Source: Cohnella algarum
Lineage (GTDB): Bacteria; Bacillota; Bacilli; Paenibacillales; Paenibacillaceae
Length of the DNA: 64,000 nt
Assembly (NCBI RefSeq): GCF_016937515.1
Contig: NZ_JAFHKM010000002.1
Coordinates: 3,777,001 to 3,841,000 of the forward strand
Reading direction: 5' to 3'
The notes below the pieces were generated by a model, which had not been told where the DNA came from, made no database searches, and saw nothing but the letters and a program-made list of their open reading frames with translations. This document shows positions 39,409-54,658 of this stretch, one piece after another; position 1 is the stretch's first letter; each line of letters opens with the position of its first letter. A program made the translations under genes and the position numbers.

Positions 39409-39516
39409 ATCGCGTACCCAACCAATCTTCCCGAAGTCCCCGAACGGTATAAATAGCGGCGAACGGCCGAGCGGCCGGCAAGCGCCGAAAATTCGGAAAT
39501 AAGGGGATGGATGGAC

Positions 39517-40743
39517 ATGAACATGCCTTTCGAAGAAACGAAAAAACGGAAATTCCGCTCCGTCCTGCGGAAAACGACCGTTGCGACGCTCGCGGTGGGG
39601 CTGGCGGCCGGAAGCTTGTCCGGCGTCTATGCGGATGCCAAAGGCAAGGATAACGGCAACGGCAACGGCAAACGGCAATCGGCCAAAGGGGAAATCAACC
39701 TTCGCTACAGCGATTTGAGCGAAAAGGAATGGAAATGGGCGTACAAGCACATTATCCGGCTCGCCTCCAGGCAAGTGTTCAACGGCTACGAAGACGGAAG
39801 CTTCAAACCGGCCAGCAGCATTACGCGCATCGAAGCGATCGTGGCGTCCGTCCGGCTGCTCGGCTTGAAGGACGAAGCGGAAAAAGCCGAAAACATGAAT
39901 GCGGCGTTGAACTTTAAAGATTTCGACAAAGTGAAGAAAAAATTTCCGTGGGCGATCGGCTACCTGAAGGTGGCGCTGGAAAACGATCTCCTTGCGGAAA
40001 CCGAAACGTCGGTGCAGGCGGAAAAAGCCGCCGATCGGCTGTGGGCGTCGATTTTGCTGGTGAAAGCGCTCAAGCTGGAAGACGAAGCGCTTGCCAAGAT
40101 GAATACGCAGTTGACGTTCAAGGATGCGAAGGAAATTCCGGCGGGAGCGGTCGGATACGTTGCGGTGGCGCTGGAAAAAGGGCTGATCACCGGTTACGGG
40201 GACAACACGTTCAAGCCGAACAAGCCGGTGACGCGGGCGGAGCTCGCCACGCTGCTGGACCGCGCGGGCGAGCAGCTTCCGGAAGAAGAAGCGCAGGCGG
40301 TTGTCGGCTCGGTTCAGTCCGTAACTTACGGAACGCTGACGTTGACCAAGCCGGACGGCAGCTCCGTCGCGCTCGCGCTCGGCACGGACGTCTTCGTGTT
40401 CCGCGAAGACAAGAAAGTCGACGTATCGGCCGTGCAGGTCGGCGATACCGTGCTCGCCCGCACGTACGGGGGCAAAGTCGTGTTCATCGAAGTGACGAAA
40501 ACGGCGCAGCAGACGATCGAAACGACCGACTACGGCACGGTCGGATCGTTCACCTTGAACGCGCAAGGCAAAATAGCGACGCTGTCGCTCTCGAAAACGG
40601 TGAACGGCTCCGCGGCGATTACCGTTTACAATGTGGCGGATAACGTCGTCATTTCGGGCGGGAACGGAGCGCTTTCGCCCAACCAATCCGTCATCGTCAC
40701 GATTGCAGCCAACGCCGTCACCAAAATCGCGATTCAATCGTAA
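39517..40743 (+). CDS. Secreted protein with three SLH domains
   Basis: About 408 residues. A signal peptide (about 15-42, cleaved near VYADA) is followed by a short Gly/Asn/Lys segment and three SLH repeats (about 63-118, 130-190 and 200-255), the last one canonical (GLITGYGDNTFKPNKPVTRAE). A C-terminal part of about 150 residues is rich in Thr/Val beta structure and resembles a small OB- or KOW-like repeat (DTVLARTYGGKVVFIEV) without a family I recognise. It would attach to secondary wall polymer. Several ATGs are close together; 39517 has AAGGGG 10 nt upstream. Confidence 0.85.
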   Translation: MNMPFEETKKRKFRSVLRKTTVATLAVGLAAGSLSGVYADAKGKDNGNGNGKRQSAKGEINLRYSDLSEKEWKWAYKHIIRLASRQVFNGYEDGSFKPASSITRIEAIVASVRLLGLKDEAEKAENMNAALNFKDFDKVKKKFPWAIGYLKVALENDLLAETETSVQAEKAADRLWASILLVKALKLEDEALAKMNTQLTFKDAKEIPAGAVGYVAVALEKGLITGYGDNTFKPNKPVTRAELATLLDRAGEQLPEEEAQAVVGSVQSVTYGTLTLTKPDGSSVALALGTDVFVFREDKKVDVSAVQVGDTVLARTYGGKVVFIEVTKTAQQTIETTDYGTVGSFTLNAQGKIATLSLSKTVNGSAAITVYNVADNVVISGGNGALSPNQSVIVTIAANAVTKIAIQS

Positions 40744-47685: not shown

Positions 47686-47732
47686 CGACAGGCCGCTTTC
47701 CTTCGCGGGAAGGAACGACGGCCTGTCGTTTT
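47686..47732. terminator. Bidirectional terminator between araC and psd
   Basis: CGACAGGCCG pairs exactly with CGGCCTGTCG; the loop holds an inner stem. T-runs occur on both sides for the convergent genes. Confidence 0.8.
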
Positions 47733-48556
47733 CATTTTTCGTCCGAAAGCTCCCTGGCCTTCCGGTTGCCGTCAAGCACGCCCAGAAGCTCGCCCATTTT
47801 GACTCTGTCGCCGGCTTTGAGGCCGCTTCTCGCCCGGCAAGTCTGATTTTCCGCCAGCAGGACGACGGTCGAGCCGAATTCGAAATACGCCAGCTCCTGG
47901 CCGCGATCGACGTTTGTGGGCCGCGGGGTTACGTACCGGATGCTGCTGACGTTAAGGGCTCCGACCTTGACGACTGCCACTTCGCCGAATTCATGGCGGA
48001 TGTAGGTGACGAGCCTTTCGTTGCGCGACAGGACGCGCCGCATCGACGTCAAGCCGAAGTCGTTCACCGGATATACCCGGCCGGGAATATGCTCGCTTTC
48101 CGCAATCGTTCCTTCGCAGGGAGAATGAATTCGATGATAATCTTTGGGACTCAAGTACAGAACCCAATACAGCCCGTTCTCATACAATGTAGTTCGAGGC
48201 GAACGGTTGAGCAGCTCTTCCAGCGAGTAATCCTGGCCTTTGATTTTCAACAGCATTCCGTTTTCGATTGAGCCGCATGCCGTGACGAGCGCATCGACCG
48301 GACTGACGAGCGCTTGGGCGGTTTCGTCCACGAGACGGCAACCCGGCTTCAGCCTCCGGGTAAAAAATTCATTCAACGAGCCGTATTCCTCCAGCTTCTT
48401 CTCCGCCTCTTCCGCCGGAATGCCGTACAGGGCGACGAAACGCGGAATGTAGCGGCGGCTGAAGGCGGATTTGGCGAGCCGTCCCGTCAGCCGGGAAACG
48501 AATTTGCGCGAGGACAATTCCGTCATGGCGCGCAGCAGCCAACGATTCATTCGCAT
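47732..48556 (-). CDS. psd: Phosphatidylserine decarboxylase
   Basis: A 274-residue membrane-associated enzyme that makes phosphatidylethanolamine from phosphatidylserine. The self-cleavage site occurs as EFGSTVVLL (Gly-Ser near residue 236), from which the pyruvoyl group is formed. LKIKGQDYSLEELL and YLSPKDYHRIHSPC with the catalytic-site histidines are typical. The cleavage motif is FGST instead of the common LGST. I start at ATG 48556 behind AAGGAG. pssA, the usual partner, is not adjacent. Confidence 0.92.
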   Translation of the reverse strand: MRMNRWLLRAMTELSSRKFVSRLTGRLAKSAFSRRYIPRFVALYGIPAEEAEKKLEEYGSLNEFFTRRLKPGCRLVDETAQALVSPVDALVTACGSIENGMLLKIKGQDYSLEELLNRSPRTTLYENGLYWVLYLSPKDYHRIHSPCEGTIAESEHIPGRVYPVNDFGLTSMRRVLSRNERLVTYIRHEFGEVAVVKVGALNVSSIRYVTPRPTNVDRGQELAYFEFGSTVVLLAENQTCRARSGLKAGDRVKMGELLGVLDGNRKARELSDEK

Positions 48557-48714
48557 GGCCACTCCTTTTGCCTCAATTTGATTTCGCTTGAACGATGGCT
48601 TGGCAGGCAAAGCCGTGCCGATTTCAGTGTGACATATCGCCGTCCAAAGTTCAACTTTTTCGCGGGGCCGGCTTGGCGAACGATGCGGCTTAAGGGGGGA
48701 TCGACATCGTAAAA

Positions 48715-49848
48715 GTGGCGTTTGTCACGCCGGGGGCCTACGCCGTGCCTTCTCCGAGGGGAGGGTCGGTCGAACGGGTCGTCGAAAAAGTCGTTCCGCT
48801 GCTCGCGCCTGCCATCGAAGCCCGAATCTACGGCAGGGTCCGCCGGGGCTTGCCGGCCCGGGAACGGTGGCGGGGCGCGGAATGCGTGCGATATCCCGCA
48901 TCCGACAAGGCGGCTTACGCCGCGCGGGTATTTCGAAGCCTGGCTTCGTACCGGCCGGATCTGATCCAGGTGGAAAACAGGCCTCTGTTCGTGCGGGAGC
49001 TCCGCAAACGGTTTCCGGATAAGCCGATCTGGCTCAGCTTGCAATCGACGACGTTTATTTCGCGTCCGTATCTCGGACCGAAAACGACGCGGGCGTGTTT
49101 GCGGCTTGCCGACCGGATCTTGGTCAACAGCCGTTATTTGGCGTCGCAGGTAAGGGCACGGGCGCCCGAAACGGCCGATAAAATCAGCGTCGTGCATCTG
49201 GGCGTCGAACCGGAAAGGTTCGGCTTGTGGAATCCGGAGGAGGAACGAGCGCGCCGAGGCTGGGCGGACAGGCGGATCGTGCTGTACGTCGGGCGGCTTA
49301 TTCCGCTCAAGGGCGTGCATCACCTCCTCGCGGCAATGCCGGAGCTGGTCCGGGCCGTTCCGAACGTTCTGGTCGTGATCGTCGGAGGCGCTTTTTACGG
49401 TTCGTCCCGGCGCACCGCTTACGTCGAACGCCTGCACAAATTGGCGAAGCCCTGGAAGCGGCACGTTCATTTCCAATCGTACGTTTCGCATACCGACATT
49501 CCCCGCTGGTTCGGCCTGGCTCACGCGGTCGCCGTTCCTTCCGGGGAAAGGGAAGCTTTCGGACTCGTGAACGTAGAGGCGATGGCGAGCGGGCTTCCCG
49601 TCGTCGCGGCCCGATCGGGCGGCATTTCCGAAATCGTGGAAGACGGCGTTACCGGCTTCCTCGTGGACCGGCAATGCCTGCGAAGCGGACTCGCCTCCCG
49701 GCTGTCCCTGCTTCTGCAGAACGAGAGTTTGCGAGAGGAGATGGGGCGCAGGGGGCGGGAAAGAGCGCTGTCCTTGTTCACTTGGGAGCATACCGCCGGC
49801 AGATGGCTGGACGAAGCGAAGCGGGCGGGCATTCTGAACGGCGACTAA
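48715..49848 (+). CDS. Family 4 glycosyltransferase, CotSA-like
   Basis: A GT-B-fold glycosyltransferase of about 377 residues. The N-terminal acceptor half begins with AFVTPGAYAVPSPRGGSVERVV, close to the pattern of spore coat protein SA (CotSA), and the donor half has LYVGRLIPLKGVHHLL and the nucleotide-sugar motif EAFGLVNVEAMASGLPVVA. GTG 48715 lies 15 nt after the ribosome site AAGGGGGG; an ATC codon at 48706 has ideal spacing and may be the real start. A spore-coat glycan or surface-polysaccharide role is possible; the sugar is unknown. Confidence 0.88.
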   Translation: MAFVTPGAYAVPSPRGGSVERVVEKVVPLLAPAIEARIYGRVRRGLPARERWRGAECVRYPASDKAAYAARVFRSLASYRPDLIQVENRPLFVRELRKRFPDKPIWLSLQSTTFISRPYLGPKTTRACLRLADRILVNSRYLASQVRARAPETADKISVVHLGVEPERFGLWNPEEERARRGWADRRIVLYVGRLIPLKGVHHLLAAMPELVRAVPNVLVVIVGGAFYGSSRRTAYVERLHKLAKPWKRHVHFQSYVSHTDIPRWFGLAHAVAVPSGEREAFGLVNVEAMASGLPVVAARSGGISEIVEDGVTGFLVDRQCLRSGLASRLSLLLQNESLREEMGRRGRERALSLFTWEHTAGRWLDEAKRAGILNGD

Positions 49849-49908: not shown

Positions 49909-50088
49909 GTGTCGTCTCCTTTCCCAAGCCTGTTGCGATATCCGCTCCATGGCGCTCCGACCCGGAAGCCTGCGCAATTGCAGTTTTTGTCGCTGCCGGA
50001 AGTAAAGAGAAAGTCTAAGGGTACCGCTTATTTTTTTAAATTACAGTTTATAGTTATTTAACCGACCTAGCTCCCAAACAATCGGGTG

Positions 50089-50116
50089 ACGTGCCTATGG
50101 GTGAATGCATATGATA
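50089..50116 (+). promoter_or_regulatory. Sigma-K-type sporulation promoter
   Basis: AC (50089-50090), 17 nt, then CATATGATA (50108-50116) matches the classical sigma-K form AC-N17-CATANNNTA completely. The start would be near 50123, 25 nt before the coding region and just ahead of the ribosome site GGAAGGAGAGG. No sigma-A promoter is visible in the gap. Confidence 0.55.
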
Positions 50117-50147
50117 CGTTAGATTATCCGTTGGGAAGGAGAGGAAC

Positions 50148-53100
50148 ATGAAAAAAGGCAAAACGAAAAAAGCGCCCAAAACGCGCCGGCCGCTTTATTT
50201 TGTCGACAATCCGAACACTTCCGAACTTCATTGGCTGGATGATATAAAAAAGCAAAATGCCAAACCGGTCAGCGTGCACGGGGCTTCCGCCGTCGCGGAC
50301 CCTCCCCGCGAGGCGCAGGAAACGGCAACGGTCGAAACGCCGGCGGAAGCGGGAAGTGCGCCTTACGATGCGTTCTCCGGCTTGACTTCCGATTTTGCAT
50401 CAGCCCAGGAAACCTTTGAAACCGCCGATCTGTTTGCGGCGTATGGCGATGCGGATTCGGACGCCCCGAAGATTTCCGAACAGGCGGAAGAGATCGCCAC
50501 CGTCGTTTCGTATGCCGAACGCAACCGATACGAAGCGGCGGAAGCGCTCGCGGACCTGCTGTATAATCCCGATGTCCCGAATCCGGCCGCAGAGGAATCC
50601 GCGTCGGAGGAAGAGGCGGAGCCGGCCGAACGGGAGCCAAGAAGCAAGCGTCATGAAAAGCTGGCCGAAAAACGGATGCCGGTGCCGGAGCCGATCGTGT
50701 ACACGGACGATTTGGCGAACGAATCCGTCACCGGCGACAAACTGGCCCCGTTCTCGGTCGGTTCCCGGCATCTGCAGGCGGAAGCGGTGACGACGGAAGC
50801 GCTCGCCGACTTTTCGGTCACGGCGATCAAGCTGGCGGACGGTTCGGTCACGTCCTCCAAGTACGCTCCCGAATCCATAACGGGCGAGCATCTGACGAAA
50901 AACGCGATTTCCGGACAAAAAATCCGGGACCGCTCGATTACGAGCGAAAAGCTGAAGGATGGCAGCGTGACGTCGGAGAAGCTGGCGGACCGGACGATCA
51001 GCGCGGACAAGATCGCGGAAGGCTCGATTCAGCCTAAACATTTGAGCCAATCGATCATTACGACGGAGCTGCTGAAGGACCAGGCGGTTACGGCGGAGAA
51101 AATCCGCAGCGGGGCTATTCGCAGAGAAAATCTGAGCAATGAAATTATCGACACCTCCAAGCTGGCGGACGGTTCGGTGACGGTTTCCAAGCTGCGGGAC
51201 GAATCCGTCGGCCCGGATAAAGTGGCCCGCGAAGCGATCGAGACCCGCCACCTGAAGCCGGGACTCATTCTCGCGGATCACGTCGCTCCCGGAGTCATCT
51301 CGGGAAAGCATATCGCTCTGCAGGCCATCACCTCGGGCCATCTGAACAAAGGCGCCGTGGGCGCGGACGAATTGGCCGATCAATCGGTAATCGGAAGCAA
51401 GCTGGCCCGCGGGGCGATTCAAACCGAGCACCTGCAAAACGCGGCCGTCCGCGGCGCCCAACTCGCTTCGGAAGCCGTTGAGAATCAGCATATCGCGGAG
51501 GGGGCCGTTACGGCTCCGAAGCTTGCGGAGCAGTCGGTTACGACAGTCAAACTCGTCGATCACGCGGTCACGTCCATGAAAATCGCGGATCAAAGCGTAA
51601 CGTCGGGCAAAATCGCAAGCGAATCGGTGCTTTCCCGCCATTTGGGGAAAGGGGCGGTCGAGGCGGAACATTTGGCGGACTATTCGATCGAACGCCGGCA
51701 TTTGACCGACGGGGCGGTGGACGGCCGGCATCTGGCTTACGAATCGGTCCGGAGGGAGCATTTGCAGGAGCAAAGCATCGGTTCGACCCAGCTCGCGTCA
51801 GAAGCGGTCATTCGCCGGCATATCGCGGGCGGGGCGATCGGCGAAGAGCAGCTGGCAAGCGGCGCGGTTCAATCCGGGCATATTGCCGACGGAGCCATTG
51901 GCCAGCAGCATCTGGCTCCGGCCGCCGTTCGAAGCGAGCATCTGACGGAAGGCAGCATAACGGCAAGCAAGCTGGCTGCGGGACAACTCAAGACGTTCCA
52001 CTTTGCCGAAGAATCGGTGACGGGAGAAGCCATCGCCGACCGGACGCTCGAGGGGCGGCATTTGCGCGAACGCTCGATCGAGTCCGGCCATCTGGCCGAT
52101 CAATCGGTCGGGACCGCGGCGCTTAAACCCGAGTCCGTGACTTCCGACATTATCGCTCCCGGCGCCGTCGGCGAGCGGCAGCTCGGCATCCGTTCGGTAT
52201 TTTCGCATCATTTGTCGGATCATTTGATCACATCGCTAAAGTTGTCGCCGGAAAGCGTTTCGACCGACAAGCTGGCGGATATGTCGGTGACGACCGCCAA
52301 GCTGGCCGAAAAAAGCGTGGGCGGGCGCCAACTGCAGGCGTCGAGCGTCGATAATTCTCACTTGACGGAGCGTTCCGTCGGTCCGAATCAGCTGCAGATG
52401 GGGGCCGTCGGGACGGAGCATCTGAAGCCGAACACGGTCAAAGCGGCTCATCTGACCGCTAACAGCGTCGGGGAAGCGGCGCTCGCCGAAAATGCCGTCA
52501 CGGAAAAAAAACTGGCGGACGGAAGCGTAACTTTGTCGAAGATGGCTCCGGGAAGCGTCGGCGGCGAGCAGCTGCTAAGCGACAGCGTCGGCGGAAAACA
52601 CGTGAGACCGGACTCGATTCAAGGCTATCACCTCCATAAGGGCGCCGTATCCGTGCCGCATCTCGCTCCGGATATGCTTCATTTCGTGAAGCTTGCCGAA
52701 CGGCGAATCGATTCCGAGCGGCTCGAACCGGGATCGGTCGCCCAGGTTCACCTGCGGGATCTCGCGGTCACGGAAGCGAAGCTGGCGGCGGCCAGCGTAT
52801 CGGAGGATAAAATCGCCAACGAAGCCGTTTCGGCCGACAAGCTGGCGGCGGGCAGCGTGGTCACGAGCAAGATCGGCAACGGCGCGGTGACGAAGGAAAA
52901 GCTGGCGGACGGCGCGGTGACCGAGTGGAAGCTGGCGGACGGGGTCGTTACGGAAGGAAAGCTTTCCGTCGGAGCCGTCTCGGAACTGAAGCTCGCCGAC
53001 GGCAGCGTGACCGCCCGCAAGCTGTCGGGCCAATTGCTCGATTACATGTCGGCGATCGGGAAGCCGATCTCGACGGATAGGCTGGTCGACGGCAGCGTGA

Positions 53101-54608
53101 CTTCATCCAAATTGGCCGCTTTTAGCGTAGGTTCGAACCAGCTTGCGGACGGTTCGGTCGCGTCGAATAAACTCGCCGCGCAAAGCGTTGGAACGGATCA
53201 GCTCGCGGCGGGCGCGGTAAGCGGAGAAAAGCTTTCGGCCCGGAGCGTCGGTCCTTCGCACGTGATGGTCCGGTCGATTTTGACGGAGCACTTGGCGGAC
53301 GGAACGGTCACCGAATCGAAACTTGCGGCGGGCGCGGTTGGAACGGAGCAGCTGGCCGCAGGTTCTGTCACGACGGATAAATTGGCCGATAACAGCGTAG
53401 GAACCGCGCAGCTTGCGAACGGGGCGGTCGGAACCGCGCAATTGGCGACGGGAGCGGTCGGCCGGAGACAGTTGGCGTTGGACGCGGTAGGTACGGAACA
53501 ATTGTTGGAAGGCAGCGTGACGTACAGCCGGCTGTCGCAGGAATTGCAAGTGGCCGTCGATAAGGCGGTTGCGCCGGTAGATCCGGCGAGCCTTCCGGAT
53601 GAAAGCATTCCGTCCGCGAAGCTGGCGACGGGATCGATCGGCACGGACCGGCTCGCGAACAGAGCCGTCACCTCCGACAAACTGGCCGGAGGCAGCGTAG
53701 GGACCGCACAGCTTGCGAACGGGGCGGTCGGGACCGCGCAATTGGCGACGGGAGCGGTCGGTGCCAAACAGATCGCCTCCGGCGCGGTCGGTACGGAGCA
53801 GCTGTCCGAAGGGAGCGTGACGTACAGCCGCTTGTCCCCGGATCTGCAAGGGGCCGTCGACAAGGCACTTGCGCCGATCGACGCGGCGGAAATTCCGGAC
53901 GAAAGCATTTCGGCGGCGAAGCTGGCGGCGGGATCGATCGGCACGGACCGGCTGTCGAACGGAGCCGTTACCGCCGAGAAGCTGGCCGAAGGAAGCGTAG
54001 GCGCGGCCCAACTCCAGGTAGGAGCTGTCCAGTCGGAAAAGCTCGGACTGCACAGCGTCACTTCGCTGCATATCGTGCCGGGCTCGATCGTCACCGGCCA
54101 TATAGCGGAAAAAGCCGTGCTTGGCGTCAATCTCGCCGACGGCAGCGTGACGGCCGAAAAGCTGTCCGGAGATATCGTCGAGATGCTGGACGAATTGCGA
54201 ACCTCCGCCCGCGACAGCCGCGTCTTCGAGCCGGCGGACGGCAGCGTAGACGGCTCGAAGCTGGCACACGGAAGCGTGACCGGAGAGAAGCTGGCCGACG
54301 GAAGCGTAGATGGGGCAAAGCTGGCTTTTCTCCCCGTAGCGGCATCGCTTCCAAACGTAACCCTTCTGTTCGGAAACGAGCCTTATCAATTTCCGGGACC
54401 GGTGGAAAGCATCAGCATTACGTTAAAGTTCAGTCAACCTTTCGCCGATGCCTCTTACGTCGTCGTCGCGCTTTCCGACCACCCGTCCTGCATTTGCATT
54501 GTCAAAAGCAAGCAGCCGGAAGAAGCCGTCCTGGAAATGATTCGGACTCGACTCGGTCCCGATCCGCAAGGCGCGATTCAATGGATCGCCGTAGGGGCCA
54601 AAGCGTAA
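50148..54608 (+). CDS. Giant decapeptide-repeat protein
   Basis: A 1,486-residue protein without signal peptide or membrane segment. Residues 1-190 are polar (basic start, then RPLYFVDNPNTSELHWLDD and an acidic stretch). Residues about 190-1395 form over 100 near-tandem ten-residue units, consensus (G/E)(S/A)(V/I)(T/G)xxK/H/Q-L-A-D, with hydrophobic positions 3 and 8. Two short breaks contain LQ.AVDKA. The last 90 residues form a beta-rich domain ending in IQWIAVGAKA, resembling what I recall as WIAG-tail proteins of Paenibacillus. The pattern suggests a long fibre or beta-solenoid. The sigma-K promoter points to the spore surface. Function unknown. Confidence 0.9.
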   Translation: MKKGKTKKAPKTRRPLYFVDNPNTSELHWLDDIKKQNAKPVSVHGASAVADPPREAQETATVETPAEAGSAPYDAFSGLTSDFASAQETFETADLFAAYGDADSDAPKISEQAEEIATVVSYAERNRYEAAEALADLLYNPDVPNPAAEESASEEEAEPAEREPRSKRHEKLAEKRMPVPEPIVYTDDLANESVTGDKLAPFSVGSRHLQAEAVTTEALADFSVTAIKLADGSVTSSKYAPESITGEHLTKNAISGQKIRDRSITSEKLKDGSVTSEKLADRTISADKIAEGSIQPKHLSQSIITTELLKDQAVTAEKIRSGAIRRENLSNEIIDTSKLADGSVTVSKLRDESVGPDKVAREAIETRHLKPGLILADHVAPGVISGKHIALQAITSGHLNKGAVGADELADQSVIGSKLARGAIQTEHLQNAAVRGAQLASEAVENQHIAEGAVTAPKLAEQSVTTVKLVDHAVTSMKIADQSVTSGKIASESVLSRHLGKGAVEAEHLADYSIERRHLTDGAVDGRHLAYESVRREHLQEQSIGSTQLASEAVIRRHIAGGAIGEEQLASGAVQSGHIADGAIGQQHLAPAAVRSEHLTEGSITASKLAAGQLKTFHFAEESVTGEAIADRTLEGRHLRERSIESGHLADQSVGTAALKPESVTSDIIAPGAVGERQLGIRSVFSHHLSDHLITSLKLSPESVSTDKLADMSVTTAKLAEKSVGGRQLQASSVDNSHLTERSVGPNQLQMGAVGTEHLKPNTVKAAHLTANSVGEAALAENAVTEKKLADGSVTLSKMAPGSVGGEQLLSDSVGGKHVRPDSIQGYHLHKGAVSVPHLAPDMLHFVKLAERRIDSERLEPGSVAQVHLRDLAVTEAKLAAASVSEDKIANEAVSADKLAAGSVVTSKIGNGAVTKEKLADGAVTEWKLADGVVTEGKLSVGAVSELKLADGSVTARKLSGQLLDYMSAIGKPISTDRLVDGSVTSSKLAAFSVGSNQLADGSVASNKLAAQSVGTDQLAAGAVSGEKLSARSVGPSHVMVRSILTEHLADGTVTESKLAAGAVGTEQLAAGSVTTDKLADNSVGTAQLANGAVGTAQLATGAVGRRQLALDAVGTEQLLEGSVTYSRLSQELQVAVDKAVAPVDPASLPDESIPSAKLATGSIGTDRLANRAVTSDKLAGGSVGTAQLANGAVGTAQLATGAVGAKQIASGAVGTEQLSEGSVTYSRLSPDLQGAVDKALAPIDAAEIPDESISAAKLAAGSIGTDRLSNGAVTAEKLAEGSVGAAQLQVGAVQSEKLGLHSVTSLHIVPGSIVTGHIAEKAVLGVNLADGSVTAEKLSGDIVEMLDELRTSARDSRVFEPADGSVDGSKLAHGSVTGEKLADGSVDGAKLAFLPVAASLPNVTLLFGNEPYQFPGPVESISITLKFSQPFADASYVVVALSDHPSCICIVKSKQPEEAVLEMIRTRLGPDPQGAIQWIAVGAKA

Positions 54609-54616
54609 AAAGCCTA

Positions 54617-54658
54617 AACGGTTCGACAGTGCGCTTTGCTGTCGAACCGTTTTTTTTC
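54617..54658 (+). terminator. Terminator after the repeat protein gene
   Basis: A perfect stem (AACGGTTCGACAG with its complement) around a 9-nt loop ends in eight Ts. Confidence 0.9.

Follow-up and report, generated by a model that had tools for sequence, protein, structure and literature searches.

A stretch of 64,000 nucleotides of Cohnella algarum (RefSeq assembly GCF_016937515.1, contig NZ_JAFHKM010000002.1, positions 3,777,001 to 3,841,000 of the forward strand; hereafter the window) harbours a gene encoding a 1,486-residue protein with a long shaft of ten-residue repeats (decads) and a C-terminal WIAG-tail domain. This WIAG-tail protein is best explained as a late mother-cell sporulation protein that forms long fibres on the spore exterior; judged from sequence, this reading is given a probability of roughly 0.65. 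The gene is preceded by a conserved promoter block of the sigma-K type, the WIAG-tail domain co-occurs with the sporulation protein SpoIVA, and the two ends of the protein are conserved around a shaft of variable length. The gene and the parts of its product are as follows.

50148..54608, +: WIAG-tail decapeptide-repeat protein (open reading frame with ATG start, 1,486 aa, C-terminus IQWIAVGAKA)
50184..50252, +: conserved N-terminal motif RRPLYFVDNPNTSELHWLDDIKK, residues 13-35, proposed spore anchor (alignment A2)
50256..50705, +: low-complexity linker, residues 37-186 (decad parse)
50706..54332, +: decad shaft, residues 187-1395, ~117 units (parse and autocorrelation)
53317..53916, +: 300-nt in-frame tandem duplication within the shaft (copies 53317-53616 and 53617-53916, 76% identity)
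54366..54596, +: WIAG-tail domain, residues 1407-1483, proposed tip (NF012201; alignment A1, n = 41)

Layout of the WIAG-tail protein

The product has a computed mass of 154 kDa and a computed pI of 5.4. A decad parse with loose criteria recognized 126 units over the entire protein, 117 of which lie within residues 187-1395, and the longest uninterrupted chain counted 89 decads versus at most 6 in 500 shuffles of the protein. This agrees with the first-pass annotation of this DNA, which had described a 1,486-residue protein of more than 100 ten-residue repeats. The fixed ten-residue period with hydrophobic residues at positions 3 and 8, also claimed there, was recovered by periodicity analysis, together with an underlying period of five. 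Hydrophobic autocorrelation over residues 191-1395 was 0.72 at lag 5 and 0.71 at lag 10, stayed at 0.67-0.72 at all multiples of five through lag 40, and was -0.14 to -0.20 at non-multiples of five. The peak at lag 5 means that the true hydrophobic period is five and that the decad joins two different pentads, approximately G-[SA]-V-T-x and x-[KH]-L-A-D, with V, I or L at position 3 and L, V or I at position 8. Serine and threonine together account for 17% of the residues, a value given for the shaft. From the 300-nt duplication, which is in frame, 76% identical and also found by TRF, it follows that the shaft grows via segment duplication. Shaft length among orthologues ranges from none (frames of 203-213 aa) up to that of a 4,588-aa open frame, with both ends fixed. 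In the shaftless variants (L234-L237, from genus g27 of family f9) the N-terminus is still basic and the WIAG end is kept, and three of these four have CATATGTTA or CATATGCTA upstream.

It had been proposed from the repeats that the protein folds as a regular solenoid or a trimeric fibre. Both the unbroken period and the match of the repeats to phage tail-fibre families speak for a regular fibre, which could be either a solenoid or a trimeric fibre. The sole solved-structure match for the repeats, orf16 of entry 9eg4 (E 0.0026), was not used. A match to the PADLOC defence-system model PD-Lambda-5_A was likewise set aside, as it is limited to residues 873-958 within the repeats. A Pfam scan of the whole protein at E up to 1 found zero families, hence no collagen-like repeat family and no DUF4183. 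As noted before, a signal peptide is missing; within the first 100 residues, Kyte-Doolittle means over 19 residues peak at 0.20.

The N-terminus is rich in lysine and arginine and has the consensus R[RK]PLYYVDNPNxxELxWLDD. Residues V19, D20, P22, E26 and L27 are invariant in alignment A2, which comprises 38 rows (L055 and L062 were excluded; the motif of L062 is degenerate). In the own genome the next-best match to this motif has an E of only 0.39. Relatives found by the motif belong to Cohnella and Paenibacillus, with in addition two proteins labelled Bacillus sp. and one labelled Paenibacillaceae bacterium, and the earlier statement that similar proteins exist in Paenibacillus was thus correct. 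The N-terminal motif, the conserved upstream block and the 300-nt duplication are additional to the features of the first-pass annotation. In Paenibacillus prosopidis (L059 and L159) the N-terminal motif recurs in a second gene, which in L059 starts ~0.5 kb past the WIAG domain of the first gene; the region upstream of this second gene is without the promoter block.

The separate C-terminal domain ending in IQWIAVGAKA, recognized before as such, belongs to a named family. NCBIfam model NF012201 (WIAG-tail) matches residues 1407-1483 with 86.3 bits (cut-off 33), and G26, F45, Y54, W96 and G100 of the domain are kept in 41/41 sequences of alignment A1. The claim that these proteins have no described function holds insofar as the family carries a name and a function was not found in the literature searched; the terminal domain itself had already been named in NCBIfam. 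In the same literature, as far as the accessible text of the sources goes, the sole use of the term concerns the algal-virus gene BQ1_177, tabulated as 'tail fiber protein containing WIAG-tail domain' (PMC12085832). A homologue search with residues 1397-1486 gave 54 candidates, none of them significant, and a search with alignment A1 gave 21 proteins (9 named WIAG-tail, 5 'hypothetical' and 7 without a name). A partial WIAG-tail protein labelled Clostridioides difficile (P0022) lies on a contig of 432 bases and is possibly a contaminant.

Zero matches were obtained with the C-terminal profile against the PDB (E up to 10), and zero families with the C-terminal domain of the window against Pfam and PHROG. 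The best Pfam relative of the domain is the Gp53-like C-terminal domain PF21882, which matches 12 of the 41 orthologous domains weakly (best E 0.0021; the window copy is not among them). An hhalign comparison with an H-type lectin (PF09458; the target was a single sequence) scored 25.6 over 62 columns, the last W-I-A-[IV]-G strand included, with a probability of just 35%. This score exceeds the maxima of the 158 controls (15.0 for 60 shuffles and 18.8 for 98 control segments), whereas the PF09458 model itself, at E up to 1, matched 0 of the 41 domains. One H-lectin gene was found in 200 genomes of the class, and a usable family around that gene was not obtained.

The likeness to phage tail fibres raises the question whether the gene is a phage-derived tail fibre or the tailocin fibre of a degraded prophage. 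The repeats match tail-fibre families (PHROG 892 and others), and 99 phage records hold similar repeats (identity mostly 22-35% among the listed phage matches). However, a Pfam scan of 20 open reading frames (ORFs) within 37,637-63,383 revealed zero phage-type families, and the tail fibre inside a prophage that the first-pass annotation had named as an argument against its own proposal was not encountered across 37.6-63.4 kb of the window. Moreover, the WIAG domain of one orthologue found zero matches in 50,697 phage records by tblastn. The gene, unlike those of phages, is a chromosomal core gene with its own conserved N-terminal motif and promoter, present as a single copy in nearly every genome of the genus and order. 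On gene context, conservation in genus and order, and the unmatched WIAG domain, a prophage or tailocin fibre was rejected as very improbable.

Sigma-K-type promoter and co-occurrence with SpoIVA

The following signals flank the gene.

50086..50090, +: -35-like GTGAC of the sigma-K-type promoter (conserved in orthologues)
50093..50102, +: palindrome GCCTATGGGT in the promoter spacer (conserved as GCCYATRGGY)
50108..50116, +: -10-like CATATGATA of the sigma-K-type promoter (motif conservation)
50136..50144, +: ribosome-binding site AAGGAGAGG (sequence)
54620..54658, +: intrinsic-terminator-like hairpin and T run directly 3' of the gene (read from sequence)

The string TGAC-N17-CATANNNTA is found exactly at 50087-50116. 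Its conservation was analyzed in 40 loci (the window and 40 fetched orthologue loci, minus L068, which was missed by the start pattern) and in 78 named loci, which come from the top 80 among 109 relatives and partly coincide with the 40. A strict form, AC-N16/17-CATANNNTA, occurs in 17/40 orthologues versus 0.13% of shuffles, and a loose form, AC-N15-18-CATANNNT, in 29/40 versus 1.6% of shuffles. A relaxed form, (AC, GC or TC)-N16/17-CATANNNT, the -35 of which was chosen after the sequences had been inspected, occurs in 39/40 and in 76/78 named loci, compared to 3.4% of shuffles (2-4% overall). Loci L059 and L159 were read at the downstream second motif gene; that gene and L170 make up the misses in these counts. 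For L147 and L202 the parse contained no ribosome-binding site and the match start was used instead.

Two genes of the same genus served as controls, yabG, which we take to be a sigma-K gene, and spoIVA, which we take to be a sigma-E gene. Both the strict and the relaxed form were present in 30/30 yabG upstream regions and in 0/30 of spoIVA, the latter having a sigma-E-like -10 in 20/30. The promoter of the WIAG gene resembles that of yabG and differs from that of spoIVA, as would be expected of a member of the sigma-K regulon. The AGC variant of the -35 also occurs in the bclB promoter of B. thuringiensis, which depends on sigma-K (accessible text of PMC4750369).

In the position profile of the named loci (75 of 78 rows), information content reaches 1.9-2.0 bits at the G, T and C of GTGAC and 2.0 bits at CATA and T of CATANNNT, against at most 0.5 bits just upstream of GTGAC. 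The pattern GCCYATRGGY-N5-CATA is present in 51/78 named loci; its one exact match in the genome is the WIAG gene itself, and zero were found with one mismatch. The spacer palindrome resembles a putative pair of GerE half-sites. In genome G000 the same 23 bases, which match the promoter pattern with two mismatches, occur at seven places and are probably part of a repeated or mobile element.

WIAG is single-copy in the own genome and present once in each of the 37 genomes of the genus (37/37). It was detected in 173/197 genomes of the family, 134/149 of the order and 79/299 of a class-wide draw, in which it spans 12 families; a search of B. subtilis as control genome found none. A few genomes have two copies. 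In G040, G058 and G070 (genus g5) there are two WIAG matches each, the second in a short open frame of 274-309 aa. In the same draws SpoIVA was found in 143/149 order and 211/299 class genomes. The order's 6 SpoIVA-negative genomes, all of one genus, lack WIAG (0/6). Of the class genomes drawn, the 79 with WIAG are without exception SpoIVA-positive when the lists are compared by script, so that none of the 88 SpoIVA-negative genomes carries WIAG. Fisher p values for the association, which ignore the kinship of the genomes, are 3.6e-7 (order) and 5.7e-15 (class). Whether the terminal domain tracks with sporulation had been set beforehand as a check on the first-pass annotation; co-occurrence with SpoIVA in order and class, together with the sigma-K-type promoter, gives a positive answer. 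A late-sporulation role of the WIAG-tail protein in Cohnella and Paenibacillus is well supported by the evidence from sequence.

The same data bear on a different explanation: the protein could be cytoplasmic, or an adhesin on the surface of vegetative cells, and its link to sporulation could simply reflect shared ancestry. Most positive genomes are indeed related, long repeat proteins are often adhesins, and the upstream block could be another regulatory element. This explanation is nevertheless disfavoured and considered improbable, in view of the lack of a signal peptide and of any anchor of the usual type, the 0/88 count among SpoIVA-negative class genomes, and an upstream block shaped like the yabG promoter of the same genomes.

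Proposed spore-surface fibre and its known counterparts

In the proposed mechanism, sigma-K RNA polymerase would transcribe the WIAG-tail gene late in sporulation, and the protein would be synthesized in the mother-cell cytoplasm surrounding the forespore. An export signal would then be missing because the protein is made in the very compartment that encloses the forespore. The N-terminal motif may dock the protein in an outer spore layer. The ~117 decapeptides would give the protein a stiff shaft, probably with chains intertwined into a beta fibre as in phage tail fibres, and the WIAG-tail domain at the distal end would register the chains (probably three) and constitute an exposed tip, perhaps a lectin. 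A spore-surface fibre is considered likely; trimer and lectin tip are speculative.

BclA, the exosporium nap glycoprotein of the Bacillus cereus group, is likewise not known to carry an export signal. Its N-terminal domain attaches it, its shaft is collagen, and its C-terminal domain promotes trimerization (PMC10470788). The WIAG-tail protein resembles it in its short N-terminal part, in a repetitive shaft whose length varies and in a C-terminal domain that is fixed, and likewise has a sigma-K-type promoter with a CATATGNTA -10 (for BclA: accessible text of PMC10470788 and PMC4750369). By analogy it may be an anchored fibre with an exposed tip; the likeness is drawn from descriptions of the layout. 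In contrast to BclA, the shaft consists of decads without collagen repeat and the C-terminal domain is a WIAG-tail, which is not known to form a jelly roll or a trimer. The promoter spacing is N17 in the WIAG-tail gene and N16 in bclA. Another type of fibre, F-ENA, has been reported on Paenibacillus spores, and DUF4183 genes have been reported in Cohnella (PMC11952670). The WIAG-tail protein differs from F-ENA in having no DUF4183 and in being one giant chain, whereas F-ENA is described in the accessible text as a polymer of ~10-kDa subunits.

Distribution and promoter point to late sporulation and not to exposure. The protein might therefore also be a mother-cell sporulation protein that acts as a long spacer in the coat interior or as a cross-linking scaffold. 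The missing signal peptide would fit such a role, and so would conserved ends around an unconserved middle, as in a two-ended linker. Still, the tail-fibre-like repeats and a C-terminal domain that weakly resembles tail tips and lectins suggest an exposed fibre, and an internal scaffold is considered unlikely.

Several observations weigh against a late-sporulation spore fibre. The association with SpoIVA is weaker than its p values, as the genomes are related, and at the order level it rests on one genus and probably one loss event. WIAG is absent from 9/143 (order) and 132/211 (class) SpoIVA-positive genomes, so that the protein is dispensable for sporulation. The strict sigma-K form is found in only 17/40 and 28/78 loci, and a sigma-E-like -10 is also matched in 3/40. 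Among the loci L213-L250, which belong to more distant families and for which 17 of 38 genes were parsed, CATANNNT lies upstream in 5/17 parsed genes (L227, L234, L236, L237 and L244), several are without a recognizable N-terminal motif, and L228 has a sigma-E-like CATACAAT upstream. An expression or proteomic record of the WIAG-tail protein was not found in the literature searched. A spore-surface proteome of Brevibacillus, in its accessible text, identifies, in two bands of ~28 and 16 kDa, four proteins other than this one; given these bands, it neither supports nor excludes the WIAG-tail protein (PMC5335551).

With the preferred reading of an exposed, anchored fibre, a wider but tentative extension is possible: the spores of Paenibacillales, and perhaps of further families of Bacilli, could bear a fibre on the tail-fibre plan, anchored by its N-terminus, with a beta shaft of decapeptides and a tip resembling a lectin, encoded by one giant sigma-K-controlled gene per genome. 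If the fibre is real, it would represent a second way, unrelated to BclA, of building a spore nap, and a major lineage of spore formers would have a core protein of the spore surface that goes unseen in surveys based on B. subtilis. In 2025, sporulation genes were surveyed in 1,460 Paenibacillus genomes with 741 B. subtilis proteins as queries (PMC12826061). Since all queries, according to the accessible text, are B. subtilis proteins, a protein without a B. subtilis relative would be invisible to such a survey. A tail-fibre-type filament with a lectin tip would represent a building plan common to phages and spores. Being single-copy in the genus, near-universal in the order and equipped with its own late-type promoter, the gene offers a direct handle on the outer-surface composition of these spores, and the natural shaft lengths (from none to >4,000 residues of open frame) make it testable that fibre length follows repeat number.

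Neighbouring genes

Upstream of the WIAG-tail gene lie the following genes.

47732..48610, -: phosphatidylserine decarboxylase, conserved neighbour (Pfam PF02666; 23/40 fetched orthologue loci, 36/78 named loci)
48715..49848, +: GT4 glycosyltransferase, conserved upstream neighbour (Pfam PF00534; 19/40 loci, 49/78 named loci)
39511-40743: S-layer homology (SLH) domain protein, ~10 kb upstream

Downstream genes are conserved in 0/40 loci. A sigma-K block shared with the WIAG-tail gene was not clearly seen upstream of the GT4 gene, and none of the NCBIfam equivalogs, searched for a relation to the spore protein CotSA, scored above its cut-off. The GT4 product might glycosylate the shaft, which is the weakest of the proposals made here. 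The GT4 gene is found on the same strand within 6 kb upstream in 31 of the 69 named loci that have 10 kb of upstream sequence. The pair of phosphatidylserine decarboxylase (-) and GT4 (+) genes at 47732-49848 is retained upstream in many Cohnella and some Paenibacillus loci. Other neighbours include an RpiR regulator, ABC-transporter genes and the SLH protein.

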